Positions 6,576 to 19,073 of a DNA stretch of 64,000 nt are shown in pieces (the stretch's first letter is position 1; each line of letters starts with the position of its first letter). The stretch comes from Actinoplanes sp. L3-i22 (lineage in GTDB: Bacteria > Actinomycetota > Actinomycetes > Mycobacteriales > Micromonosporaceae): NCBI RefSeq assembly GCF_019704555.1, contig NZ_AP024745.1, positions 10,088,501 through 10,152,500 on the forward strand, given 5' to 3'. The position numbers were made by a program, and so were the translations under genes. The notes beneath the pieces are model-generated. The model made no database searches. It worked only from the letters and a program-made list of their open reading frames with translations, and was not told the DNA's origin.

Positions 6576-7241
6576 GTGACTCCAGCGGAACGACTCAGCA
6601 AGGCGACCGTCGCCGAGCGCGCCCTGCGCCTCGCCGACGAGGAGGGCCTGGACGCCATCACCATCCGACGCCTGGCCAAGGAGCTGGGCGTCACCCCGAT
6701 GGCGCTGTACTGGCATTTCAAGAACAAGGACGAGCTGCTGCTCGGGGTCGTCGACTACGTGCTCAGCGACGTCCGGTCGGACCGGACGGCCGGCGATCCG
6801 TGGCAGAAACAGCTCCGCGCGATCCTGGAGACTGTGATCGGCGTCATGCGCGCGCACCCGTCGCTGCCGGACCTGCTGCACTCCACCGACAAGACCCAGA
6901 CGCCCAACTTCACCCGCGCGACCAACGACACGCTGGCCCTGCTCGGCGCCGCGGGGTTCGACGTCGAGGAGTCGTACTGGATCGCGATGTACCTGCTGAA
7001 CGGCGCGATGGGGCTGGTCGGCGGCCAGCCGGACTGCCCGGCGAGCGTCCCGGCCGACCAGGCCGACGAGTGGCGCCGGCAGAAACGCGTCCAGCTGGAA
7101 TGCCTGCCGGCCGACCGGTTCCCGATGATGATCGAGTTCGCCAAGACGTACCGGCGGGCGCCGGACGTCGAGCGGTACTACGCGTTCGGGCTGGACCTGC
7201 TGATCTCCGGGGTGGAGTCGATGGCGGAACGCCGCCCTTGA
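6576..7241 (+). CDS. TetR-family transcriptional regulator
   Basis: 221 residues. The N-terminal helix-turn-helix contains ITIRRLAKELGVTPMALYWH (about residues 29-48), followed by FKNKDELL; the remainder is an all-helical ligand-binding domain resembling the TetR_C family of true TetR proteins. The start is GTG at 6576; longer in-frame extension would run through the operator cluster. It is divergent from the DHA2 exporter and very probably represses that gene and itself, with the exporter substrate or a relative as inducer. Confidence 0.9.
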   Translation: MTPAERLSKATVAERALRLADEEGLDAITIRRLAKELGVTPMALYWHFKNKDELLLGVVDYVLSDVRSDRTAGDPWQKQLRAILETVIGVMRAHPSLPDLLHSTDKTQTPNFTRATNDTLALLGAAGFDVEESYWIAMYLLNGAMGLVGGQPDCPASVPADQADEWRRQKRVQLECLPADRFPMMIEFAKTYRRAPDVERYYAFGLDLLISGVESMAERRP

Positions 7242-7305
7242 TCTTCGTCCGCTCTTAACCCCGGCTGCCCCGGCGATCCACCCGCTGCCGATTGGCTGGA
7301 TCGTC

Positions 7306-8919
7306 ATGCGGGGGACACAAACACTGACGGCAGCCGTTCTGTGCGTCGTGACAGCCATGTCGTACGAATCGCCGGCCTACGCCGGCACGGCCACCCAGCT
7401 CACCGGAGGCGGTGACACGGTCGCCGCCACCGCGGTCGATCAATGGGCGGCCGAACTCGGCATGACCGGGCTCCGGATCAACTACAACGGTGTCGGCTCG
7501 CGGGCCGGCCTGACCCAGTTCGGCAGCGACCTGACCGATTTCGCGGTCACCGACGTTCCGTTCGACACACCGCCGGCGCGACCGTTCGCCTACGTGCCGA
7601 TGGTCGGCGACGCGGTCGACCTGGCGTACACCGTGACCGCCGGAGGACGGCGCCTGACCGATCTACGGCTGTCCGAGCCGGCCCTCGCCGGGATCTTCAC
7701 CGGAACCATCACCCGATGGAACGACCCGGCGATCGCCGCCGACAACCCCGGCGTGGCGCTGCCCGGCGAGGTGATCCGTCCGGTGATCCGATCCGACGCC
7801 AACGGCACCACGCTCGCGTTCACCTCCTGGCTGGCGGCGCGCCGCCCGGCCGCCTGGGCCGACTACTGCGGCCGGGCCGGGCAGACCACGCCCTGCGGGC
7901 CGACCAGCCTCTATCCGTACGCCGGGGGCGACTTCACCGCGCTGGCCGGAGCCCAGAACAGCGCCGGCTTCGCCCGGGAGACCGAGGGCGCGATCGCGTA
8001 CGTCGACCACCACACCGCCCGGGCGATCGGCAACCGGGTCGCCCGGATCGGCAACGCCGCCGGCATCCCCACGGCCCCGGCCGCGACAAGCATCGCGATC
8101 GGACTCACCCGGGCCGGCGTCGCCACCGACGGGACGGCCGATCTCCAGCCGGTCTACGCCAACCCGGACCCGCGGGCCTATCCCCTGGCCTACTACCACT
8201 CCCTGGTCGTACCCACCGCTACCAGCGCCCGGTTCCCCGCGGCGGCCGGCGGCGCCCTGACCCGCTTCGGCGGCTTCGCGATCTGCGCCGGGCAGGAACA
8301 GGTCGACCAACTCGGGTATGCGCCGCTCCCGATCAACCTGACCAGGGCGGCCATCGACCGGCTCGGCCGGGTGCCCGGCGCCGACCCGGCCGCGCTGCAG
8401 CTCTCGACCTGCGCCAACCCGACGTTCCGGCCGGACGGGACCACGATCCTGGACACCGCGCCGTACCCGCCGTCGCCGGACCTCACCGAGCTGATCACCA
8501 CGACCGTGGAGGCCGGCACACTCACCGTCTCGGTCGAGACCGGGGACGTCGTGCTGCCCGCTCCGGTCCTCACCGCGGACGGCGAAGCACTCACCACCTC
8601 CGGCGACATCCGGACGGTCACGGTCACCGACACCCGCGCCGGCAACCCCGGATGGAACGTCAGCGGCCAGATCACCGACTTCACCGACGGTGCCGCGCAC
8701 ACCATCCCGGCCGAGCGCCTCGCCTGGACCCCGGCGGTGGTCGACCACCTGCCGTTCCAGCACGTGACGGCCGGGCCGGGCGCCGTGCTGGGCCGGCCCG
8801 CCACGCTCGGCTCCGGCGACAACGGCACCGCCCGGCTGGGCGCGCATATCGTCCTGAACGCGCCGACCGAGACCCTGCCCGGCACTTACTCGGCCCTGCT
8901 GACCTTCACGGCCATCTAG
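7306..8919 (+). CDS. secreted PstS-like phosphate-binding protein with WxL-like C-terminal domain
   Basis: 537 residues with a signal peptide (cleavage near residue 26). Residues 28-390 resemble PstS: GGGDTVAATAVDQW, then NYNGVGSRAGL, SDANGTTLAFTSWL and a late YPLAYYHSL segment, the phosphate-binding fold of Pst systems. PstS is normally a lipoprotein next to pstCAB; here there is no lipobox Cys and no transporter nearby. Residues 400-537 form a second domain with VTDTRAGNPGWNVSGQITDF and a later RLAWTP, a W-x-(V/I/L) pattern also found in the phosphatase at 15698-17659. That points to a wall-bound rather than transport role (inference). Start is ATG at 7306. Confidence 0.75.
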   Translation: MRGTQTLTAAVLCVVTAMSYESPAYAGTATQLTGGGDTVAATAVDQWAAELGMTGLRINYNGVGSRAGLTQFGSDLTDFAVTDVPFDTPPARPFAYVPMVGDAVDLAYTVTAGGRRLTDLRLSEPALAGIFTGTITRWNDPAIAADNPGVALPGEVIRPVIRSDANGTTLAFTSWLAARRPAAWADYCGRAGQTTPCGPTSLYPYAGGDFTALAGAQNSAGFARETEGAIAYVDHHTARAIGNRVARIGNAAGIPTAPAATSIAIGLTRAGVATDGTADLQPVYANPDPRAYPLAYYHSLVVPTATSARFPAAAGGALTRFGGFAICAGQEQVDQLGYAPLPINLTRAAIDRLGRVPGADPAALQLSTCANPTFRPDGTTILDTAPYPPSPDLTELITTTVEAGTLTVSVETGDVVLPAPVLTADGEALTTSGDIRTVTVTDTRAGNPGWNVSGQITDFTDGAAHTIPAERLAWTPAVVDHLPFQHVTAGPGAVLGRPATLGSGDNGTARLGAHIVLNAPTETLPGTYSALLTFTAI

Positions 8920-8962
8920 CATCGGACCTCGGAACATGACGTTCATGGAGGAGGTCCGATGC
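8919..8962 (+). promoter_or_regulatory. hairpin covering the RBS and start codon of the aminotransferase gene
   Basis: The arms 8919-8930 and 8951-8962 are perfectly complementary over 12 bp. A smaller inner stem GAAC/GTTC (8932-8935 with 8941-8944) fills the loop. The left arm begins with the last base of the upstream TAG stop; the right arm includes part of the Shine-Dalgarno GGAGGAGG and the ATG at 8959. A ribosome finishing the upstream gene would open the stem, so it could couple translation of the two genes; it could also be an operator. Confidence 0.6.
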
Positions 8963-10164
8963 GGCAGGCGCAGCGGCTGAAGAGTGTCCGGTACGACATC
9001 CGCGGCCCGGTGCTGAAGCGCGCCCAGGAACTGGAGGCCGCCGGCCACCGGATCCTCAAGCTCAACCTGGGCAACCCGGCGCCGTGGGGCCTGGCCACGC
9101 CCGAGCCGATCGTCGCCGACGTGGTGCAGAACATCGTGGCCGCTCAGGGCTACAGCGACGCGCGCGGCATCTACTCCGCCCGGGTCGCCGTCGCCCAGCA
9201 CTACCAGACCCTCGGCGTGCCGAGCGTCCAGCCGGACGACGTGCTGCTCGGCAACGGGGTCTCCGAGCTGATCGTGATGGTGCTGCAGGCGCTGCTGGAC
9301 ACCGGCGACGAGGTGCTGGTGCCGAGCCCGGACTATCCGCTCTGGACCGGCGCGGTCAACCTGTGCAGCGGCCGGGCGGTGCACTACCGCTGCGACGAGA
9401 GCGCGGACTGGGCCCCGGACCTGGAACACATCGAGTCCCGGATCACCGACCGCACCCGCGCCCTCGTGGTGATCAACCCGAACAACCCGACCGGCGCGGT
9501 CTACTCCAAGGACATCCTGCTCGGCATGATCGAGCTCGCCCGCAAACACGGCCTGCTGATCTTCGCCGACGAAATCTACGACAAGATTGTGTACGACGGA
9601 GCCACGCACCACACGCTCGCCGCCCTCGCGCCGGACGTGCCGGTGGTCAGCATGGGCGGCCTGTCGAAGGTCTACCGGGCCGCCGGCTTCCGCTCCGGCT
9701 GGCTCGCGACCAGCGGTTTCAACAGCCCCGACTCGGACTACCTGGACGGGCTCCAGCTGCTCGCCAACATGCGCGTCTGCCCGAACGTCCCGGCCCAGCA
9801 CGCGATCCAGACCGCACTCGGCGGCTACCAGAGCATCGACGAGCTGACCCGCCCCGGCGGCCGCCTCCTCGAACAGCGCGACCACGCCTGGCGCGCCCTG
9901 GTCGACATCCCCGGCGTCGACTGCGTGAAGCCGGCCGGCGCCCTCTACCTCTTCGCCCGCCTCGACCCGGCCATCCACAAGATTCACGACGACGAACGCC
10001 TGGTCATCGACCTGCTCGAACAGCAGCACCTGCTGATCTCCCACGGCTCCGGCTTCAACCTCGACACCCCGGACCACCTCCGCCTGGTCTTCCTGGCCCC
10101 CACCGACGTCCTCACCGACGCCACCACCCGAATCCGAACCTTCCTCTCCACCTACCACCAGTAG
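8959..10164 (+). CDS. alaA: class I PLP-dependent aminotransferase (AlaA-like alanine transaminase)
   Basis: 401 residues, the size of E. coli AlaA. Recognisable elements are NLGNPAPWG near the N-terminus, the NPNNPTGAVYS loop, DEIYDKIVYDG, and the PLP lysine K237 in GGLSKVYRAAGFRSGW, which is the AlaA-type version of the motif. The expected reaction is glutamate + pyruvate to alanine + 2-oxoglutarate. The start ATG at 8959 has an extended Shine-Dalgarno (GGAGGAGG) and lies within the stem of a hairpin that starts at the stop codon of the preceding gene, 39 bp upstream. Its metabolic link to that secreted protein is unclear. Confidence 0.88.
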   Translation: MRQAQRLKSVRYDIRGPVLKRAQELEAAGHRILKLNLGNPAPWGLATPEPIVADVVQNIVAAQGYSDARGIYSARVAVAQHYQTLGVPSVQPDDVLLGNGVSELIVMVLQALLDTGDEVLVPSPDYPLWTGAVNLCSGRAVHYRCDESADWAPDLEHIESRITDRTRALVVINPNNPTGAVYSKDILLGMIELARKHGLLIFADEIYDKIVYDGATHHTLAALAPDVPVVSMGGLSKVYRAAGFRSGWLATSGFNSPDSDYLDGLQLLANMRVCPNVPAQHAIQTALGGYQSIDELTRPGGRLLEQRDHAWRALVDIPGVDCVKPAGALYLFARLDPAIHKIHDDERLVIDLLEQQHLLISHGSGFNLDTPDHLRLVFLAPTDVLTDATTRIRTFLSTYHQ

Positions 10165-10508
10165 CCCCGCCGGCCGCTCCCCGCCGGCCGCTCCCCACCG
10201 TTCCCGCCCGGCCGCTCCCCGCCGTTCCCGCCCGGCCGCTGCCCGCCAGGTGGCGCCACACCCTGCCCAGACGACCCCGCGCGGCCGCGCCACCCCACAC
10301 CGCGGCCTGCCGTTCCACGGCGATGGCCTGCCAGGCGGCGGGGCTGCCAGGCCATGCCCCGCGTGGCGACCCAGCGCGGGGCATGGCCTGGCCGCGCCTG
10401 GCCCCTCACACCCGCCGCGCCGAGGACGCCTATTCCACAGGCGTGAAGCCCGCACCCGCCGACCGGGCTCGCGCACCACCGCGCCCGGGCAGCTCGCGCG
10501 GGCCGGCT
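10165..10508. repeat. intergenic region with CCG-rich degenerate tandem repeats
   Basis: 344 bp between convergent stop codons. Immediately after the aminotransferase stop, a 14-19 bp unit built on CCGCCGGCCGCTCCC / CCGTTCCCGCCCGGCCGCT is repeated about five times up to about 10250. The rest is GC-rich with several GGCCATGCC-like inverted segments. I see no plausible gene. Confidence 0.55.
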
Positions 10509-11177
10509 TCACCCTGGCTGGGTCAGCTTCGGCCCGGTCAGGTTGTTGTCCCGGACCCAGTTGGTGATCGCGACCCGATTCGGCAGTCCGAGCTTGCTCT
10601 GGATGCCTGCCACATGCCCTTTCACCGTGCTGAGCGAGATGAACAGCGCCGCGGCAATCTCCTGATTGGTCCGCGCCTGGGCGATCTGGCACGCCACCGC
10701 CAGCTCCCGATCGGTCAACCGATGCCGAACCGGCCCAACCGCCGGCCGGCTCGCGGTCAACTGCCGAACGAGCCGAACGGCCACCGACGGCGAAAGCAGC
10801 GTCTCCCCCCGATGCGCTGCCCGGACCCCTTCCAGCAGCAGCTGCGCGCCCGAATCCTTGAGCACGAACCCGAGCGCACCGGCATGCAACGCCCCGTCGA
10901 CATACTCATCCTCGCCGAACGTGGTGACCACCAGCACCCGCATCGGATCCCGGACCCCGGGCCCGGCCAGCGCCCGAGTCACCTCGACGCCGTCCATGAC
11001 GGGCATCCGGATGTCGACCAGGCAGACGTCCGGCCGCAGCCGCCGCGCCATCGCCAGCGCCTCCACCCCGTCCGCGGCCTCGCCGATCACCTCGATGTCC
11101 GGCTCGTTGTCCAGGATCACCCGAAGCCCCCGCCGGATGACCTCCTGGTCATCAGCGATCAGAACCCTGATCGTCAT
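10509..11177 (-). CDS. NarL/LuxR-family response regulator
   Basis: 222 residues. The receiver domain has DD at residues 9-10, the phospho-acceptor D55 in CLVDIRMPVMDG, and the conserved lysine in FVLKDSGAQ. The C-terminal LuxR helix-turn-helix contains LTDRELAVACQIAQARTNQE and STVKGHV. The ATG at 11177 has GGAGGG five bases upstream. It lies downstream of the histidine kinase, separated by 228 bp of tandem repeats. The likely target is the divergent ABC transporter operon. Confidence 0.93.
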   Translation of the reverse strand: MTIRVLIADDQEVIRRGLRVILDNEPDIEVIGEAADGVEALAMARRLRPDVCLVDIRMPVMDGVEVTRALAGPGVRDPMRVLVVTTFGEDEYVDGALHAGALGFVLKDSGAQLLLEGVRAAHRGETLLSPSVAVRLVRQLTASRPAVGPVRHRLTDRELAVACQIAQARTNQEIAAALFISLSTVKGHVAGIQSKLGLPNRVAITNWVRDNNLTGPKLTQPG

Positions 11178-11206
11178 CGGTCCCTCCACCGCTGTCGCTC
11201 AATAGC

Positions 11207-11408
11207 TCGCCACCGCCAGACCCTCCGCGACGAGCCGACCACCAGGCATCCGCCACCAGCGAGACCTCGGTGACCACCCGTCCGCCCATCCACGACCGGC
11301 GAGACCTCGATGACCGACCGTCCGACCAGCCGCCACCGGCAAAGGCCTCGACGAGCAGCCGTCCGGGCATCCGCCACCAGCGAGACCTCGGTGACCATCT
11401 GTCCGTCA
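11207..11408. repeat. five degenerate tandem copies of a ~40-bp unit between kinase and regulator genes
   Basis: Units begin near 11207, 11247, 11287, 11327 and 11368. The first and last good copies share 32 identical bases (11245-11276 and 11366-11397). The core is GCCACCAGCGAGACCTCGGT. Because 40 is not a multiple of three and all frames are interrupted or shift, it is unlikely to be coding. The array begins essentially at the stop codon of the kinase gene (11406). Confidence 0.7.
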
Positions 11409-12536
11409 GTCGTAGCCGGTCGGCAGAGTCGCGGCGACCAACCATCCCGTGCCGTCGCGTGGACCGGCCTGGAGCGTGCCGCCCAGGGCCTCCACCCGCT
11501 CACGCATGCCGATCAGACCGTATCCCCCGCGGCGGCTCGATCGCCCGCCCGGCGGCCCGTCATCCGCGATCCGCACATGCACGCCGCCGTCGCCGTCCTC
11601 GCTGACCGAGACGGTCACCTCGCGTGCCTGCGGCGCGTGCTGGGCGATGTTCGTCAGCGACTCCTGCACCACCCGGTGCACCGTGCCCGCCACCTCCGGC
11701 GGCCAGGCGCCAACCGCCTCCGGCAGGTCGAGCCGCACCGGCGGCCCATGCCGCTCGAACCGTTGAACCAGCGCACGCACCTGCTCCGGCGCCGGCCGCC
11801 GGGACATCCCGTCGCCGTCGTCACGGAGCAGCCCGACCACTCGCCGGATCGCGTTCAGCGCCTCCGACCCGGCGCTCTCGATCTCCGCCAGTGAACCGTC
11901 CAACTCCTCGGGCCGGGTCCGCGCCAGGATCCGCGCGCTCTCGGCCTGCAGCACCAGGCCGGTCAGGTGATGAGCCGCCATGTCGTGCAGCTCGCGGGCC
12001 AGTTGCAGGCGCTCCTCACTGCGTACCCTCGCCTCGGTCTCTTTCCTGGTGGCATCCGCCAACCGCAGGGCCAGGCCGGTCGCGACCGCGCCGGCGAAGC
12101 CGAACGCGTTCAGCGCGGCCACCACGTTGACCTCGCCGCCCACCGGCTGGCTGGCCAGGAAGACCACCACGACCAGGGTCAGGGCACCGGCGGTGACGGC
12201 GGCGGCTTTCGAATACGCACCCCGGCGCACCACCATCCCGACCAGCACCGCGAGCGCGAGAATGCCGGCCGGACCGGGCTCGCGTGGCAGCCCCGCGAGG
12301 TTAGCGACCAGGACCGCGCCCATCGCCAGCACCAGGCCGAGGGTGGCCGCCGCGACCGGTTTCCGCCGCCGCGCCAGCGCGATCGCGCCCAGGCACAGGC
12401 CCATCGCGGCGCCGAACAGCCAATACCACCCACCCCAGCTGGTCGCGATCGCCGCAGCGGTCAGCACCACCGCGGTCACCACCGCGGCGGCAAGTCCGAG
12501 CTCGGTGAGCCGTCTGCGCATCTCCACAGCGGACAC
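11406..12536 (-). CDS. sensor histidine kinase (HisKA_3 / DesK-NarX type)
   Basis: 376 residues: five or six membrane helices in the first 150 residues without a sizeable extracellular loop, then a HisKA_3 dimerisation domain with the phospho-acceptor histidine in RELHDMAAHHLTG, and an HATPase_c domain with QESLTNIAQHA, ADDGPPGG and GYGLIGMRERVEALGG. Such intramembrane-sensing kinases pair with LuxR-type regulators, and the regulator gene lies just downstream. Start choice is uncertain: GTG 12536 has no clear Shine-Dalgarno and ATG 12521 has GGAG directly adjacent. Confidence 0.92.
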   Translation of the reverse strand: MSAVEMRRRLTELGLAAAVVTAVVLTAAAIATSWGGWYWLFGAAMGLCLGAIALARRRKPVAAATLGLVLAMGAVLVANLAGLPREPGPAGILALAVLVGMVVRRGAYSKAAAVTAGALTLVVVVFLASQPVGGEVNVVAALNAFGFAGAVATGLALRLADATRKETEARVRSEERLQLARELHDMAAHHLTGLVLQAESARILARTRPEELDGSLAEIESAGSEALNAIRRVVGLLRDDGDGMSRRPAPEQVRALVQRFERHGPPVRLDLPEAVGAWPPEVAGTVHRVVQESLTNIAQHAPQAREVTVSVSEDGDGGVHVRIADDGPPGGRSSRRGGYGLIGMRERVEALGGTLQAGPRDGTGWLVAATLPTGYD

Positions 12537-12565
12537 GGTACGTCGGCGCGGAGGCCGCCGTACCG
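12536..12565. promoter_or_regulatory. interrupted palindrome between the two-component system and the ABC genes
   Basis: CGGTAC (12536-12541) and GTACCG (12560-12565) are inverted, with an inner CGGC/GCCG pair (12544-12547, 12554-12557). It sits in the roughly 100-bp divergent region upstream of both operons and is a candidate binding site for the LuxR-type regulator. The left edge touches the longest possible kinase start. Confidence 0.4.
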
Positions 12566-12634
12566 GCCGAAAGTACTGCTCACCCCTTCTTTGGAAGGGT
12601 GTGCGCGGCCTCCCCGATCAGCACGATTATCGGC

Positions 12635-13354
12635 ATGTCCTCCTTGCTCAAGGCCACCGGCCTCACCAAGCGATACGGCAAGCACCTCGCCCTGACCGAC
12701 TGCGACCTCGACGTTCCGGCCGGCCGCGTGACCGGCCTGGTCGGGCCGAACGGCGCCGGCAAGTCCACTCTGCTGCAGCTCGCCTGCGGCCTGATCGAGC
12801 CCACCGCGGGCACGCTGGAGGTGCTCGGCGGCCGGCCCGGCGCGACCGCCGCCCACCTGGCCCGGGTCGGCTTCGTCGCGCAGGACACCCCGGTCTATGC
12901 CTCTCTTACTGTCGAGGAGCACCTGCGCCTCGGCGCCCGCCTCAATCCCCGCTGGGATGCCGGCCTCGCGCGCCGCCGGGTGGAGCGTTCCGGCCTGCGC
13001 CCGGGGCAGAAGGCCGGTCGCCTCTCCGGCGGCCAGCGCGCCCAGCTCGCGCTGACGCTGGCCGTCGCCAAGCGTCCCGAGCTGCTGATCCTCGACGAGC
13101 CGGCGGCCGCGCTCGATCCGCTCGCACGGGACGCGTTCCTGCGTGACCTGCTGGAGTCGGTGGCGGAGCTGGGCGCGTCCGCGGTGCTCTCGTCACACCT
13201 GCTCGGCGATGTCGAGCGGGTCTGTGACCACCTGATCGTCCTGGCCGGTGGCCGGGTCCGGGTGGCCGGCGACGTCGACGCCCTGGTCACCGGGTCGACC
13301 TCGCTCGAGACCCTGGTGCTCGACCACCTGAAGCGGGCGGAGGCGATCCGATGA
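12635..13354 (+). CDS. ABC transporter ATP-binding protein
   Basis: 239 residues. Walker A is GPNGAGKSTLL, the signature is LSGGQRAQLALTLAV, Walker B is LLILDEPAAALDP, followed by the H-loop SSHLL. It belongs to the CcmA/BcrA-like group that works with ABC-2 permeases. ATG 12635 fits the family N-terminus; no Shine-Dalgarno is visible, but GATTAT lies at 12625-12630, so a leaderless mRNA is possible. The stop overlaps the start of the permease gene by four bases. It is divergent from the kinase/regulator pair, a common layout for drug- or envelope-stress-induced exporters. Confidence 0.92.
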   Translation: MSSLLKATGLTKRYGKHLALTDCDLDVPAGRVTGLVGPNGAGKSTLLQLACGLIEPTAGTLEVLGGRPGATAAHLARVGFVAQDTPVYASLTVEEHLRLGARLNPRWDAGLARRRVERSGLRPGQKAGRLSGGQRAQLALTLAVAKRPELLILDEPAAALDPLARDAFLRDLLESVAELGASAVLSSHLLGDVERVCDHLIVLAGGRVRVAGDVDALVTGSTSLETLVLDHLKRAEAIR

Positions 13355-14292
13355 TCTGGCTGAGCTGGCGACAGTTCCGCGCCCAGGCCCTCGTCGCGGC
13401 CGTCGCGCTGATCCTCCTCCTGGGCTATCTGGTGATGCTCGGCCGGCAGATCCGGGACGGCGACTACTCCGGCGCCGAGCTGCGGGAGCATTTCCAGGGC
13501 CGGGTCTATCTGCTGGACGCGGTGCCGCTGCTGACACCCGCGCTGATCGGGCTGTTCTGGGGCGCCCCGCTGGTCGCCCGGGAGTTGGAGACCGGCACGC
13601 ATCGCCTGGCGTGGAACCAGAGCGTCACCCGACGCCGCTGGCTGGCCGTCAAGCTGTTGCTCGTCGGGTTCGCCGCGCTGGTCGCCGGGGCGCTGGTGAG
13701 CGCGTCGCTGACGTGGGCGGCCAGTCCGCTCGATCAGTTCACGGGAGACCGATTTTCCACGATCTTCTTCGGTACGCGGAATCTCGCGCCCGCGGCGTAC
13801 GGGATCTTCGCTCTGGTCCTGGGGGTGGTCGTCGGTCTTCTGATCCGGCGGACGGTTCCTGCCATGGCCCTCACCCTGCTGGTCCTCGTGGTGACACAAA
13901 CCCTGACGCCGAATCTGGTCCGCCCCCACCTGTTGCCTGCCGAGCACATGTCCGCGCCGGTCACCGCCGAGGTGGTGCGGAATCTGAGCTTCCTCGGGCA
14001 GCAGCCGGAGATCTCCGGGCTGAAGGTGCCCGGCGCCTGGGTGATCAGCACGAGCGAGCTACGGACCGCCGACGGCTTGCGGGTCGGGGCGGACGCCTAC
14101 GGCAAGTGCGTGGCGGGCTCGTTCGACAAGGCGGCGGACTGCCTGGGCGCGCTGAACCTGCACGTCGACGTCGACTATCAGCCGACGGGTCGCTATTGGA
14201 CGTTCCAATGGCTGGAGTCCGGCCTCTATCTGGGCCTGGCGCTGCTGCTGGCGGCGCTCGGCCTGTGGCGAATCCGTCGGGCGGCGCACTGA
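13351..14292 (+). CDS. ABC-2 type transporter permease
   Basis: 313 residues with about six membrane helices and an extracellular stretch between the last two. TM2 is followed by GTHRLAWNQSVTRRRWLAVKL, a pattern found in actinobacterial ABC-2 permeases of the GTHRLAWTQSVTR type. It starts in an ATGA overlap with the ATPase gene, indicating translational coupling. It forms the membrane half of an exporter probably controlled by the divergent two-component system. A GC-rich hairpin follows 33 bp after the stop. Confidence 0.88.
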   Translation: MIWLSWRQFRAQALVAAVALILLLGYLVMLGRQIRDGDYSGAELREHFQGRVYLLDAVPLLTPALIGLFWGAPLVARELETGTHRLAWNQSVTRRRWLAVKLLLVGFAALVAGALVSASLTWAASPLDQFTGDRFSTIFFGTRNLAPAAYGIFALVLGVVVGLLIRRTVPAMALTLLVLVVTQTLTPNLVRPHLLPAEHMSAPVTAEVVRNLSFLGQQPEISGLKVPGAWVISTSELRTADGLRVGADAYGKCVAGSFDKAADCLGALNLHVDVDYQPTGRYWTFQWLESGLYLGLALLLAALGLWRIRRAAH

Positions 14293-14324
14293 CCGAAAGA
14301 GCACACCCGGAAACGCGCACTCGA

Positions 14325-14351
14325 GGGCGCGCACGTCAGCAGTGCGCGCCC
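14325..14351 (+). terminator. hairpin downstream of the ABC-2 permease gene
   Basis: GGGCGCGCAC (14325-14334) and GTGCGCGCCC (14342-14351) form a perfect 10-bp stem with a 7-nt loop. There is no T-run, as is common for actinobacterial terminators. It lies 33 bp after the permease stop. Confidence 0.6.
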
Positions 14352-14401
14352 GCAAGACACGCAGGAAAGCAGTTGCCCGGCCCGCGCACGAGGCGCGGAC
14401 C

Positions 14402-14525
14402 GGGCCGGGCCGGGGATCAGGCCGGGCCGGGGATCAGGCCGGGCCGGGGATCAGGCCGGGCCGGGGATCAGGCCGGGCCGGGGATCAGGCCGGGCCGGGG
14501 ATCAGGCCGGGCCGGGGATCAGGCC
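14402..14525. repeat. seven perfect tandem copies of a 17-bp GC-rich repeat
   Basis: The unit GGGCCGGGGATCAGGCC is repeated seven times; the GATC cores start at 14415, 14432, 14449, 14466, 14483, 14500 and 14517. The last copy contains the TGA stop of the minus-strand WxLIP-like gene. Each unit begins and ends with GGCC, so neighbouring units can pair into hairpins. There are no spacers, so it is not a CRISPR array. Confidence 0.9.
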
Positions 14526-15619
14526 TTCTCGGCCGATTCGAGGGAGGAGGAGTCGTGGGAATCATCGGACGACGGGGACGGCGCCTGCTCGGCCTTTTCC
14601 TTCAGGGCCTGCTCGACCGCCTCCGCAATGCGGGTCTCCTCGCGGGACTTGCGGCGCCTCTTGTTGCGGCGCAGCAGCCAGATGAGCGCGATCACGGCCG
14701 CGATCAGGACGATCAGCAGCACCGTCAGCGTCCACGGCAACGCCCACACGTGGGTGGTCGCGGAGACCGTGGCGAGGGCTGTCGTGGAGCCGGAGTCGTC
14801 GGTGACCAGCGGGGTCAGCGTGGCGGTCGCGGTGAGCAGGACGGCCGGGGCCACGCCGTGCACCGGCACGGACACCTTCCAGCTCTCGCCGGGCAGCAGC
14901 TCCGGGGGCGCGGCGATCGCGCTCGCGTCGGTGCGCAGCCAGCCGAACGGGCCGGAGATCGACACGGCCTGCTTCGCGGACTCGACCGCGTTGCCGGTGT
15001 TGTGGATCGTGTAGGTGACCGCCGCGTCGCCCTTGGCGAAGGCCGCGCCGGACCAGTCGACCTTGAGGTCCTCGACGGCGAGCGCGGGCACGAGGTCGCC
15101 GCCGACCCGCAGCTTTATCTTGATGCCGAGGCGGCGCTCGACGTTGACCTGCGCGGTCGCGTCGGGCGCGGTCAGCGAGGTGACGATGCCGCCGACGTAG
15201 TCACCGGGCGTCGCGTTGGCCGGGACGGTGACCTTGAACGGCACCTCGACGACCTTGCCGGCCGGGACGGTGACCGCGGCGGTGTCCGCCGTGACCCAGA
15301 CGCCGATGCCCTTCGACTGCTTGTCCCGGGCGAGCAGGTCGAGCTGCCCGGCCGAGGTGGTGAGCCCGTCCGCGGCGTAGACCTCGAGCTTGAGCGGGGT
15401 GGTCCCCTTGTTCGCGACGACCAGGCCGTCCTCCGCCGAGCCGCCCGGGTTCACGGAGTAGCTGAAGCTGGAGCGGTCGTTGCCGTACGTGTTGGAGGCG
15501 GTCCGGACCGCCCAGGTGACGTCGTTGCCCTCGGCCAGGGCGGGAGTGGCGTTGAAGCCGACGACCGCGGACGCGGCTACCAGGAAAGCGGTGGCCCGCC
15601 CGGCGAGACTGAGACGCAT
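14519..15619 (-). CDS. WxLIP/DUF916-like membrane-anchored surface protein
   Basis: 366 residues. Signal peptide to about residue 29; residues 32-160 resemble the peptidoglycan-binding DUF916 half of WxL-interacting proteins (NPGGSAEDGLVVANKG, then VPANATPGDYVGGIV); residues 165-285 form a second beta-rich domain; a membrane helix lies at about 295-316, followed by basic RRNKRRRK and an acidic-serine cytoplasmic tail. In Firmicutes such proteins hold WxL-domain proteins at the wall. It lies 79 bp downstream of a phosphatase carrying a WxL-like domain, so it is a plausible anchor for it. Start ATG 15619 has GAGGA seven bases upstream; its stop lies in the 17-bp repeat array. Confidence 0.7.
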   Translation of the reverse strand: MRLSLAGRATAFLVAASAVVGFNATPALAEGNDVTWAVRTASNTYGNDRSSFSYSVNPGGSAEDGLVVANKGTTPLKLEVYAADGLTTSAGQLDLLARDKQSKGIGVWVTADTAAVTVPAGKVVEVPFKVTVPANATPGDYVGGIVTSLTAPDATAQVNVERRLGIKIKLRVGGDLVPALAVEDLKVDWSGAAFAKGDAAVTYTIHNTGNAVESAKQAVSISGPFGWLRTDASAIAAPPELLPGESWKVSVPVHGVAPAVLLTATATLTPLVTDDSGSTTALATVSATTHVWALPWTLTVLLIVLIAAVIALIWLLRRNKRRRKSREETRIAEAVEQALKEKAEQAPSPSSDDSHDSSSLESAEKA

Positions 15620-15647
15620 GTCAAATTCCTCGAGGGGGTACGGCGGA

Positions 15648-15677
15648 GCGGGCACCGCTTCGAAAAGCGGCGCCCGC
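15648..15677 (-). promoter_or_regulatory. intercistronic hairpin between phosphatase and WxLIP-like genes
   Basis: Arms 15648-15660 and 15665-15677 pair over 13 positions with one mismatch around a CGAA-type tetraloop. It lies 20 bp after the phosphatase stop and 28 bp before the next start, without a T-run. It could partly terminate transcription or protect mRNA ends, giving different amounts of the two proteins. Confidence 0.55.
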
Positions 15678-15697
15678 CCCAACTTCCGGTCGAACGA

Positions 15698-17659
15698 TCA
15701 GCTGCTCAGCGCGGTGATCGTCAGGGTGGTGCGGTAGTTGCCCTTGTCGACGCTGTCCGGGACCTTGAAGTTCAGGGACGCCCCGAGCGTCGCCGAGCCA
15801 CGGAGGTGGCCCTGCGCGGCCGAACCCAGCACGCTGGACTCGGCGAGACCCTTGCCGTTGTCGACACCGTTCGCGACAGCGGGGCCGGGGTTCGCGCCGG
15901 CACCGGAGGACACCAGGTACGGCGTCCAGCCCAGAGCCGAGCCGGCGATGGTCTTGTCGGCGTCCTTGAAGTCGCCCACGTTGGCCGAGATCGACCACGG
16001 GGAGAGGGTGCGCCGGCTGTCCGTCACCTTGATCGGGTTGAGCTTGCCGTCCGCGGAGAGGTTGTACGCCGCGTCCTCGGTGGCGGTGCCCAGGTCGACG
16101 AGGCCGTTCTGACCGTCGATCGTCCAGCCGAACTCGCCCGGCGCCAGCGTCGGGACGTTCACCTGGATGTCCTGGTTGTCACCGTGGTACGGGTGCACCG
16201 TCACCTTGTCGACGACCGTGCCCACGGCCTTGTCCGAGCCGTTGGTGCACGAGCTGCCCAGCTCCACCGCGGCGTTCGGGGCGGCGCAGGTGCCGCTCCG
16301 GACGTCCGCGACGACCAGCTTGTCGTTGCGGACCTGGACCTTGACGTACGACCGCACGTGCTCCTGGTTCTGCACGGAGTTGTACCAGTAGTTCTCCGGC
16401 TTCAGCGGGTCGGCGCCGTTGCCCGCGCCGCTGGTGCCGCTGGAGTCCGGAGCGGTGATGTCGTAGTACTTGGAACCCGAGGCCGAGTTCGCGGTCACGT
16501 ACAGCACACCGCCGGGGCCGGCGAACACGTCGGCCTGGCCGGGCTGCTCGGTCGGGTCGGCCTTCTGGCCGTTCTTGATCAGGTAGCTGCGGGTGTACAC
16601 ATGGTCGTGGCCCTGCAGAACCAGGTCGACACCGAGCTTCGAGAAGGTCGTCGGGAAGTCCACCCGGCGAACCTTGTTGTCCGCGTCCTTGGCGTGCGCC
16701 GCGGCCGAGTAGATCGAGTGGTGGTAGACCAGCACGGTCCACTTCGCGTCGCCGCCGTGCTTGTTGACGACGTCGGTCACGTACGCGACGTGCGCCGCGT
16801 CGCCGCCACCCTTGGTGCTGTCGTAGGAGTTGCTGTTCAGGTCGATGAACAGCGTGTCCTTGTAGATGTACCAGTAGTCGCCGCCGGACGTGGTGGCGCC
16901 GGAGCTGTCGGCGTAGTAGGCCGCCGACCGGTCGGTGTTCGGGGTGTACAGGTGCTGCTCGTACGCCTTGCCACCGACGTCGTGGTTACCGATGGTCGCG
17001 GCCCACGGGTACTGACGCAGCTTGTCGGACGCCAGGAAGGCGTTCCACTGCGACTCCGTGTTCGCGGTCTCGACCTGGTCGCCACCGGAGACCAGCAGCT
17101 CGGCGTTGGGGTTCGCGGTGGTCGACACGGCCAGCGTGTCCTCCCAGCCGGCCTGGTCCTTCGCCACGTTGCCGGAGGCCCCGATCTGCGGGTCGCCGTA
17201 GAACAGGAAGTCGTAGTCGCCCTCGAAGTTCTGCGTCTTGAACTCGTACGTCGACGACCAGGCACCGACGGCGCCCACCCGGTACGTGTACGCGGTGTTC
17301 TCCTGCAGACCCGACACGGTCGCGTGCCGGTTGTACCCACCGCTGGTGGCGATGTTGGCCGCACCGGCCGCGGCGAAGGTCACGGCGTTCGCCGGGAAAT
17401 CGCCGTTGACCAGGGAGGCGGTCGGGGCGACCTGGACCTGCTGCGCGGTGTCCACGCTGGAGTACCAGGTCACGATGCGCTGCGCCTCGTTGGCGCCCAC
17501 ACCGAGGATGATCGCGGAGACGGAGCTGTCCGCCGCGACCGCAGGGGTGACAAGACCGCTGCCGAGGGCGACGGCCATGCCGAGGAAGACCGCGGTGGCC
17601 CCTGCGGCCACGCGGTTCCGAGCAAGCCCGGAAGCCTGCTTCGAGTGATTGGTTCTCAT
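15698..17659 (-). CDS. secreted purple-acid-type metallophosphatase with WxL-like C-terminal domain
   Basis: 653 residues. Signal peptide to about residue 43; an FN3-like N-terminal domain (about 45-142) as in purple acid phosphatases; a metallophosphoesterase domain with all metal-binding motifs: GDPQ (155-158), GGDQ (192-195), GNHD (224-227), HH (313-314) and GHDHVYTR (350-357). Residues 490-653 carry VTDSRRTLSPWSISANVGDF and LGWTP, matching the C-terminus of the PstS-like protein at 7306-8919. It probably releases phosphate from organic esters at the cell surface. The promoter region has PHO-box-like repeats, and the WxLIP-like gene follows in the same direction. Confidence 0.85.
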   Translation of the reverse strand: MRTNHSKQASGLARNRVAAGATAVFLGMAVALGSGLVTPAVAADSSVSAIILGVGANEAQRIVTWYSSVDTAQQVQVAPTASLVNGDFPANAVTFAAAGAANIATSGGYNRHATVSGLQENTAYTYRVGAVGAWSSTYEFKTQNFEGDYDFLFYGDPQIGASGNVAKDQAGWEDTLAVSTTANPNAELLVSGGDQVETANTESQWNAFLASDKLRQYPWAATIGNHDVGGKAYEQHLYTPNTDRSAAYYADSSGATTSGGDYWYIYKDTLFIDLNSNSYDSTKGGGDAAHVAYVTDVVNKHGGDAKWTVLVYHHSIYSAAAHAKDADNKVRRVDFPTTFSKLGVDLVLQGHDHVYTRSYLIKNGQKADPTEQPGQADVFAGPGGVLYVTANSASGSKYYDITAPDSSGTSGAGNGADPLKPENYWYNSVQNQEHVRSYVKVQVRNDKLVVADVRSGTCAAPNAAVELGSSCTNGSDKAVGTVVDKVTVHPYHGDNQDIQVNVPTLAPGEFGWTIDGQNGLVDLGTATEDAAYNLSADGKLNPIKVTDSRRTLSPWSISANVGDFKDADKTIAGSALGWTPYLVSSGAGANPGPAVANGVDNGKGLAESSVLGSAAQGHLRGSATLGASLNFKVPDSVDKGNYRTTLTITALSS

Positions 17660-17738
17660 CGGTGTCCGTTCCTTGTTCCGGATGAGAGAGATGGCTTCCC
17701 GCTGAGAAAGTTCTGGGAAGCGAGATCAAGCTGGCCTC

Positions 17739-17771
17739 GCCGGATGAACCGGGAGTTAACAAGATCAAGAG
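17739..17771 (-). promoter_or_regulatory. PHO-box-like direct repeats upstream of the phosphatase gene
   Basis: Read on the minus strand, three adjoining 11-mers are CTCTTGATCTT, GTTAACTCCCG and GTTCATCCGGC. The last fits the Streptomyces PhoP direct-repeat consensus G(G/T)TCAYYYR(G/C)G at 10 of 11 positions. The repeats lie about 80-112 nt upstream of the start codon. A closely similar set is found upstream of the HupE-like gene. Confidence 0.65.
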
Positions 17772-17796
17772 CGACGGTGGCACCCACCGGAAGACC

Positions 17797-19002
17797 TCAG
17801 CCCTGCGTGATCCGCTGCACGAACCAGATCAGCCCCATCACGGACACACCGGCCGAAATGATTCCGGTGGTCCACAGGCCGGCCCGGGGTGACCTACGTC
17901 GCAGGACGATGAGCAGCGGAAAGACCAGAGCGATGAGACTCAGTTGGACGGTCTCGATGCCCACGTTGAACACGAGCAGAGACCAGAGCAACGTCCAGGA
18001 GAACGCCTCGTCGATGCCGAGTGCCCCGGCGAAGCCGAGACCGTGCACCAGACCGAAGCAGAACACCACGCCGAGGCGGATCCACCCGGCCCGGTCGAGG
18101 CTGAAGTGCCCGCCGCCGCTCTCCAGGTCGGCGACGTGAACGCCGTGCTGCCGCAGCCGCCACAGGTGCCAGGCGGCGACGACGGCGATGGACAGCGCGA
18201 TGATCGGCTCCACGACCGCGGCCGGTGCGTCGACCAGACCCAGCGCGGCCAGCATGAACGTGACCGAGTGCGCCGCGGTGAACGCGGTGGCGGCCAGCAC
18301 GATCTCGCGCAGCCGTCGCGAGCCGGCGATCAGCGCCAGCAGGAACAGGATGTGGTCGATACCGGTCAGCAGATGCTCCGCGCCGAGCAGGAAGAACTCA
18401 CCGAACCGCTGCTCCCACGACTGCCCGGTGGAGAAGCTCGGCTGGCCGGTGTCGAGCGCGGCACTACCGGTGCGACCGTCCAGTTCGTACGTGACGATGG
18501 TTTTCGCGCCCTTGATGTAGGTCTCGCTGTCCGGAAAGAGCGCACTGCGCACCTCGTGCGCGTCCGAGGCCTTCGGGCAGGTCCAATCCAGGATCAGGGT
18601 GGCGTACGGGACGGCCTCCCGCACGCCCGTCGTGAAGTCCCCCACCGGCGACGCCACGCAGTCCACGCCCGCCGACCGCACGCCGAACCGCTCGGTGACG
18701 TAGCGGACCGCGGAGTCCCGGTGCGCGTTCAGCGCCGTGCCCATCGCCGCGTCGTCCTCGGCCTCGAACGCGTCCGTGCCGGCCCGGAACAGCGGGTCGT
18801 CCTTCTCGTAGTCCGCGGCCGAGACGATGAACAGGTCGTACTCCAGCTCTACCGAAGTCCGGACGTGACCCGCGTCTCCCGCGGTCACGTCGACGTAGAC
18901 GGTCGAGCTGAAGCCGTGGGCGAGCACCGGCCCGGCACTCAGGAGGACGGTCGCCGTGGCGGCGACCCCCAGGACGGCGGCGGCAATGACACGGCGCAAC
19001 AC
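17797..19002 (-). CDS. HupE/UreJ-like membrane protein with secreted N-terminal domain
   Basis: 401 residues from GTG 19002, which has GAAGGAG six bases upstream. A signal peptide (to about residue 28, ending VLAHG) precedes a roughly 170-residue extracytoplasmic domain, then the HupE/UreJ_2 membrane domain with GAEHLLTGIDHILF, TAAHSVTF, FGLVHGLGFA and FNVGIE. Histidines and acidic residues in these helices bind metal in HupE-type Ni2+ permeases. The repeats upstream resemble PHO boxes and no hydrogenase or urease genes are near, so a nickel role is doubtful. A link with phosphate starvation is inference from the promoter only. Confidence 0.75.
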   Translation of the reverse strand: MLRRVIAAAVLGVAATATVLLSAGPVLAHGFSSTVYVDVTAGDAGHVRTSVELEYDLFIVSAADYEKDDPLFRAGTDAFEAEDDAAMGTALNAHRDSAVRYVTERFGVRSAGVDCVASPVGDFTTGVREAVPYATLILDWTCPKASDAHEVRSALFPDSETYIKGAKTIVTYELDGRTGSAALDTGQPSFSTGQSWEQRFGEFFLLGAEHLLTGIDHILFLLALIAGSRRLREIVLAATAFTAAHSVTFMLAALGLVDAPAAVVEPIIALSIAVVAAWHLWRLRQHGVHVADLESGGGHFSLDRAGWIRLGVVFCFGLVHGLGFAGALGIDEAFSWTLLWSLLVFNVGIETVQLSLIALVFPLLIVLRRRSPRAGLWTTGIISAGVSVMGLIWFVQRITQG

Positions 19003-19040
19003 GGTGGCTCCTTCAGATATGGCCTGAGCACCGTGCACGC

Positions 19041-19073
19041 CGTCGGTGAACAAGATCAAGACGGTAGGCGAAC
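19041..19073 (-). promoter_or_regulatory. PHO-box-like direct repeats upstream of the HupE-like gene
   Basis: On the minus strand three contiguous 11-mers read GTTCGCCTACC, GTCTTGATCTT and GTTCACCGACG. The outer two fit the Streptomyces PhoP direct-repeat consensus at 9-10 of 11 positions. They end 38 nt before the GTG start. The middle unit and the start of the next (CTTGATCTTGTT) are identical to the region upstream of the phosphatase gene. Confidence 0.65.

Follow-up and report, generated by a model that had tools for sequence, protein, structure and literature searches.

Can an actinobacterium hold a phosphate-scavenging enzyme at its surface by an attachment system of the WxL type? This question is raised by a 64,000-nucleotide stretch of Actinoplanes sp. 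L3-i22 (the window; contig NZ_AP024745.1, positions 10,088,501 to 10,152,500) in a genome of 12.0 Mb on one contig. WxL systems have mostly been described in Firmicutes, as platforms at the cell surface and for contact with hosts. A first-pass annotation of the window had proposed one phosphate module, in which a PstS-like protein and a purple-acid-type phosphatase, both secreted, carry C-terminal WxL domains and are held at the wall by a DUF916/WxLIP-like protein. By our results the surface phosphatase unit is genuine and conserved, has a WxL-type clip and is probably under phosphate control. We consider it likely that the core is a starvation-controlled phosphatase whose WxL-like domain is clipped by WxLIP, and our confidence in the anatomy of this unit is higher than in its mechanism.

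The unit lies on the minus strand in the order Ang-2/HupE (17797-19002), phosphatase-WxL (15698-17659) and WxLIP/DUF916 (14519-15619); the identities given earlier to the last two genes stand, but their strand had to be corrected to minus. The phosphatase (P0003) is a secreted metallophosphatase resembling purple acid phosphatases (PAP), with PAP N-terminal and metallophosphoesterase domains above the respective cut-offs (PF16656, 59.8 bits; PF00149, 40.1 bits) and a match at E=9.7e-9 to PDB entry 2qfp, which we take to be the kidney-bean PAP. Residues D156, D194, N225, H313, H351 and H353, presumably the PAP metal-ligand set, are conserved in 12 of 12 phosphatases, and a Glu replaces the PAP Tyr iron ligand (by GDxxY spacing) in all 12, in a region where the alignment to 2qfp is poor. 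A metallophosphatase is therefore borne out, but the label "purple" is not supported because the PAP Tyr is Glu in this enzyme. Its WxL-like domain (residues 480-653 as modelled; 15701-16222, minus strand) is C-terminal and adjoins the DUF916 gene, which is the placement expected of WxL. The WxLIP gene, for which an ATG start at 15619 was picked by eye, encodes a signal peptide, a DUF916 immunoglobulin-like (Ig-like) domain, a second Ig-like domain, a C-terminal membrane helix and a basic tail; the protein scores 38.6 bits against PF06030 (cut-off, 27.3), confirming the DUF916/WxLIP-like protein predicted downstream of the phosphatase. Directly after this gene there is a 17-base tandem repeat with 7.2 perfect copies (14403-14525).

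The C-terminal domains are WxL-like and form a divergent branch. As first proposed, the ends of the phosphatase and of the PstS fusion are of the same kind, being homologous (BLASTP, 28% over 190 columns, E=1e-10), and the other four domains in the same genome show 30, 55, 35 and 30% identity to that of the PstS fusion. Three paralogues in this genome exceed the PF13731 WxL cut-off, with 46.1, 29.6 and 28.5 bits. Over 48 aligned rows, the columns of the first Trp, of Asp(W-8) and of Arg(W-6) are invariant, with a different spacing in one row, and the W+2 residue is L in 20, V in 17, A in 7 and I in 4. A first Trp motif with this Asp and Arg is a feature of WxL in Firmicutes (PMC9772566; this and the other reports cited here were available in part, and our statements about them refer to the available text). 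A profile built from the five WxL-like domains of this genome detected the domain in 75 of 121 genomes sampled from the family (Micromonosporaceae), spread over 25 of 44 genera, and, for the phylum as a whole, in 21 of 296 genomes from 16 of 199 genera. Domains may have been missed because only the best first-look candidates were scored, up to 29 per genome in the family and up to 11 in the phylum. Among 39 further WxL-like proteins, the N-terminal parts included Big_3_5 in 10, glycosyl hydrolase 18 in 2 and PBP_like_2 in 2.

The domain and its presumed partner travel together. With up to 17 candidates scored per genome, a WxLIP profile gave matches in 79 of the 121 family genomes, including all 75 bearing WxL (Fisher p=2.5e-28, with genomes treated as independent although they are not). 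We also examined 105 neighbourhoods, comprising the window, four other loci of this genome and 100 that were fetched from part of the WxL places listed, strongest first rather than at random, and counted a WxLIP as a neighbour when it shared the strand of the WxL gene and lay no more than 2 kb from it. By this measure, 99 of 109 WxL genes have a neighbouring WxLIP: 18/18 with phosphatase cargo, 19/19 with HtaA, 16/16 in Pst operons, 46/53 with other cargo and 0/3 of the PstS fusions. Co-occurrence across relatives, on which the original proposal depended, is thus upheld for the WxL-bearing genomes and for the phosphatase-WxL genes.

Evidence for a link with phosphate comes in part from the region before the phosphatase gene. 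About 80 bases upstream of its ATG lies a PHO-box-like direct repeat (GTTAACTCCCG-GTTCATCCGGC; 17739-17760, minus strand). We searched for GTTCAYY-N4-GTTCAYY, scored out of 14, using a heptamer that we take to be that of the PHO-box-like repeat. The site has 13 of 14 matches and is the sole one of at least 12/14 in the window. A PHO box consists of two 11-base repeats (PMC7866108). Repeats of at least 12/14 precede all 18 phosphatase-WxL genes of the first set; in controls they precede 1 of 19 HtaA-WxL genes and 0 of 21 HmuT genes. In a survey of named species, a profile of 12 phosphatases was run against genome contigs, and the results cited from it here and below concern the best 80 of 128 relatives; this set and the first are not independent because species are shared. 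The closest named match to the phosphatase, among the matches listed, was from Actinoplanes liguriensis (94%). The phosphatase bears a WxL-like domain in 65 of the 80, with none detected in 15, and a repeat of at least 12/14 is present at 33 of the 65 WxL-bearing loci, all on the sense strand, and at 4 of the 15 others; the background for this set is 1.4% among 1600 shuffled sequences and 1.2% among 733 other windows. The exact pattern has two copies in the whole Actinoplanes genome, of which one lies 109 bases upstream of the start codon chosen for the best PstS gene and the other precedes an unrecognised gene; when one mismatch is allowed, there are 31 sites versus 6 in a backward control, and beyond pstS and the phosphatase no phosphate gene was recognised behind these 31 sites on inspection by eye of one frame per site. 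Of the PHO-box-like promoters suggested earlier, one is supported for the phosphatase gene and none for the PstS-WxL gene, where the best upstream site reaches 10/14. A 9-mer first noticed by eye, CTTGATCTT, has three copies in the window versus 0.08 expected, at 7237-7245 (plus strand), 17761-17769 (minus) and 19052-19060 (minus), just before PstS-WxL, phosphatase-WxL and Ang-2, respectively. It occurs at 1.8 per 64 kb at other loci of this genome, and the longer CTTGATCTTSKT has 29 copies genome-wide versus 1 in the backward control. It is a moderately common genome element, and its link to the three genes is suggestive only.

Although related, the PstS protein is a fusion in its own right and does not belong to the phosphatase unit. 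Its gene (P0001; 7306-8919, plus strand) encodes a PstS-type binding protein, as annotated at the outset, with 105.8 bits against PF12849, over the cut-off, and E=2.5e-28 to PstS in the PDB; against TIGR00975 it scores 162.8 bits, under the 205-bit threshold for PstS membership by that family. The C-terminal WxL-like domain (residues 382-537; 8449-8916) has no adjoining DUF916/WxLIP gene, and the full-length protein was found, among the matches listed, in 1 of 67 congeners, namely this genome. That the two secreted proteins constitute one module, as had been supposed, is not supported. A single operon of PstS and phosphatase can be rejected because the genes lie on opposite strands, 6 kb apart, with unrelated genes between them (an aminotransferase, a two-component pair and an ABC transporter).

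A separate connection of Pst genes with WxL is seen elsewhere in the genome. Between 1.038 and 1.051 Mb (L157 and L012), a one-strand run of genes includes PstC (231.8 bits; cut-off, 196.45), PstS (212; 205), PstB (343.6; 343.2) and a PstA identified by reading, together with an Ig-WxL protein that passes the Pfam threshold, a WxLIP, a sortase, a membrane protein and proteins of 805 and 370 amino acids with weak PstS-type matches (48.4 and 25.9 bits). Loci of this type supply 16 of the WxL genes in our neighbourhoods, and in at least 9 of 67 congeners no more than about 7 kb separates PstS from WxL. No repeat of at least 12/14 was found before this operon. The PstS part of P0001 has 42% identity to the operon PstS and its WxL-like domain 56% to the WxL domain of the operon; by these similarities the protein reads as a relative of the operon PstS joined to a WxL-like domain. 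The occurrence in an actinobacterium of WxL-like domains and a partner WxLIP with a phosphate connection, the central proposal of the first-pass annotation, is thus supported, the phosphate connection by the repeat upstream of the phosphatase, by the recurrence of its motif upstream of the best pstS and by this separate Pst operon with its WxL and WxLIP.

The clip also has a haem version, at 487-494 kb (L011). A protein at 489 kb combines HtaA (146.6 bits) with WxL (44.9 bits) and has as neighbours a WxLIP, a heme oxygenase, a binding protein and a FecCD permease; among its homologues, 19 of 19 have a WxLIP and an HmuT-type binding protein beside them, and 18 of the 19 have a heme oxygenase as well. 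A further WxL and WxLIP pair at 8.792-8.795 Mb (L013) lies near ABC genes that by reading resemble the branched-chain amino-acid type, one ABC ATPase being confirmed as PF00005. The haem version, the Pst-WxL operon and the Ang-2/HupE member of the window unit were all absent from the first-pass annotation.

Several observations weigh against a WxL-clipped, phosphate-controlled phosphatase. PF13731 gives the two window domains 14.6 and 16.2 bits, below its 25-bit cut-off, and it is for this reason that we call them WxL-like. The distal second WxL motif of Firmicutes is YXXX(L/I/V)TWXLXXXP (PMC5817068), and none of our 48 rows has a Trp at the corresponding position, which is occupied by L, I, V or F; the LGWTP stretch, listed as L-WTP in the layout proposed earlier, is not this motif. 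A sequence search of the PDB for a WxL structure returned no WxL chain and weak matches that we take for chance, and the 9i25 WxL chain was absent from the 50 matches listed when a WxL model was compared with structures, a result that excludes nothing. NQIDKxxxYFDLK, a WxLIP motif (PMC10599100), was not seen on reading the window WxLIP. Ten of the 109 WxL genes have no nearby WxLIP, one of these ten being a short open reading frame of the "other" class (L078) that matches phosphatases weakly (58 bits). No repeat of at least 12/14 is present at 32 of the 65 WxL-bearing phosphatase loci. Finally, and most weightily against the simplest reading, a WxLIP accompanies the phosphatase in all 65 WxL-bearing loci and in 13 of 13 checkable loci without the domain (L252 and L257 end too early to show it); hence, WxLIP is not strictly tied to WxL on the phosphatase, and its confinement to WxL-bearing loci is ruled out.

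It is possible, although we think it improbable, that the unit serves mainly transition-metal acquisition around Ang-2/HupE, the phosphatase freeing metal or metal-binding phosphate esters and phosphate being secondary. The Ang-2-type protein, for which a GTG start at 19002 was picked by eye, has a signal peptide, an N-terminal-His domain and a HupE/UreJ_2 permease, and scores 122.9 bits against PF13795 (cut-off, 24.5). With the cleavage site placed by eye, 91 of 92 aligned homologues have a His directly behind the signal-peptide Ala, and the remaining one has a gap there. Its gene lies upstream in 59 of the 65 WxL-bearing loci and was found in all 15 others, and in vitro binding of Cu2+ is reported for the Ang-2 domain of Microbacterium (PMC12537917). 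However, the strongest PHO-like repeat precedes the phosphatase, and Ang-2 has a weaker one in front of it (11/14 or more in 8 of 18).

A direct contact of WxLIP with the catalytic part of the phosphatase or with peptidoglycan, the WxL-like domain being an optional extra, is likewise rather unlikely. The retention of WxLIP beside short phosphatases favours it. Of the 14 short forms not interrupted by a contig end (as L252 is), 10 terminate in Leu-Gln followed by TAG (L256, L258, L259 and L264-L270), nine of them in Trp-Leu-Gln, and several have a decaying remnant past the TAG; readthrough was rejected because several of them show frame shifts or decay in the sequence that follows the TAG. The other four resemble the last WxL strand at their terminus, as judged by eye, which also suits direct contact. 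Nevertheless, WxL and WxLIP co-travel across cargo types, including HtaA and the Pst operons, and therefore the WxL-like domain appears to be the shared contact. That the domains are generic Ig-like modules with a chance resemblance to WxL is very improbable, since the sub-threshold scores and the missing second Trp are outweighed by the paralogues over the Pfam cut-off, the invariant Asp, Arg and Trp and the tight co-occurrence with WxLIP.

For the starvation-controlled, WxL-clipped phosphatase, the observed homologies, co-occurrence, adjacency, gene order, repeat and WxLIP fold are consistent with a mechanism in which we infer the PhoP binding, the strand donation in this species, the surface location and the substrate. 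At low phosphate, PhoP would act at the repeat at 17739-17760 and switch on phosphatase-WxL and WxLIP, both of which would be secreted, WxLIP being kept in the membrane by its C-terminal helix. Its DUF916 domain may donate a beta strand to an incomplete Ig-like sandwich in the WxL-like domain, in the manner of a fimbrial chaperone and its pilin. The phosphatase would then be clipped to the outside of the membrane or of the wall, such that released phosphate could be captured by the PstS proteins of the cell, while Ang-2/HupE, encoded just upstream, would bind and import a transition metal. The PstS-WxL fusion may be held likewise by a WxLIP encoded elsewhere. The carriage of phosphate and haem proteins by the same type of clip, in a family where 75 of 121 sampled genomes have the domain, suggests a general clip whose cargo sets the task. 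We would propose only tentatively that Actinomycetota use WxL-like/WxLIP pairs as a general nutrient-scavenging clip, in which WxLIP, similar to pilus chaperones in shape but tethered to the membrane, would hold interchangeable cargo by strand donation (phosphatase or PstS for phosphate, HtaA for haem), every cargo set having a starvation control of its own. Phosphatases that naturally carry or lack the WxL-like domain make anchoring directly testable.

How new is such a system? More than 91% of WxL sequences are in Firmicutes (PMC9772566), and so some outside that phylum are already known; the WxL genes of PMC4449606 belong to Lactobacillus, not to bifidobacteria. We found no title or abstract on actinobacterial WxL with phosphate or haem in the open-licence literature. 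The novelty of an actinobacterial phosphate version is tempered by the Ang-2 - HupE/UreJ_2 neighbourhood already described (PMC12537917), in which Ang-2 is found only in Actinomycetota and has metallophosphatases and DUF916 as common neighbours. The window unit shares the Ang-2 permease, metallophosphatase and DUF916 with that neighbourhood and adds WxL on the phosphatase and probable phosphate control; the available text of that account makes no mention of these or of Pst and haem versions; the neighbourhood thereby gains a testable explanation in starvation-controlled, non-covalent anchoring of a phosphatase. Unlike in chaperone-usher pili (CfaA-CfaE and FimC-FimG), the WxLIP is membrane-anchored, no usher is seen in the unit and the client is presumably not released. 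The closest likeness is with the WxL/WxLIP clusters of Lactobacillales and Bacillales (PMC9772566 and PMC10599100; PDB 9i25 and 9i1y), with which the unit shares adjoining genes, the first Trp motif with its Asp(W-8) and Arg(W-6), secreted proteins that end in a WxL-like domain and a DUF916 partner that has a membrane helix besides its two Ig domains. It differs from them in lacking the second-motif Trp and, by reading, a small WxL protein in the unit, and in having PHO-like control and a phosphatase, PstS or haem-binding domain as cargo where the Firmicutes clusters carry adhesins, suggesting that a surface-attachment system of the Firmicutes type is here apparently used for nutrient scavenging.
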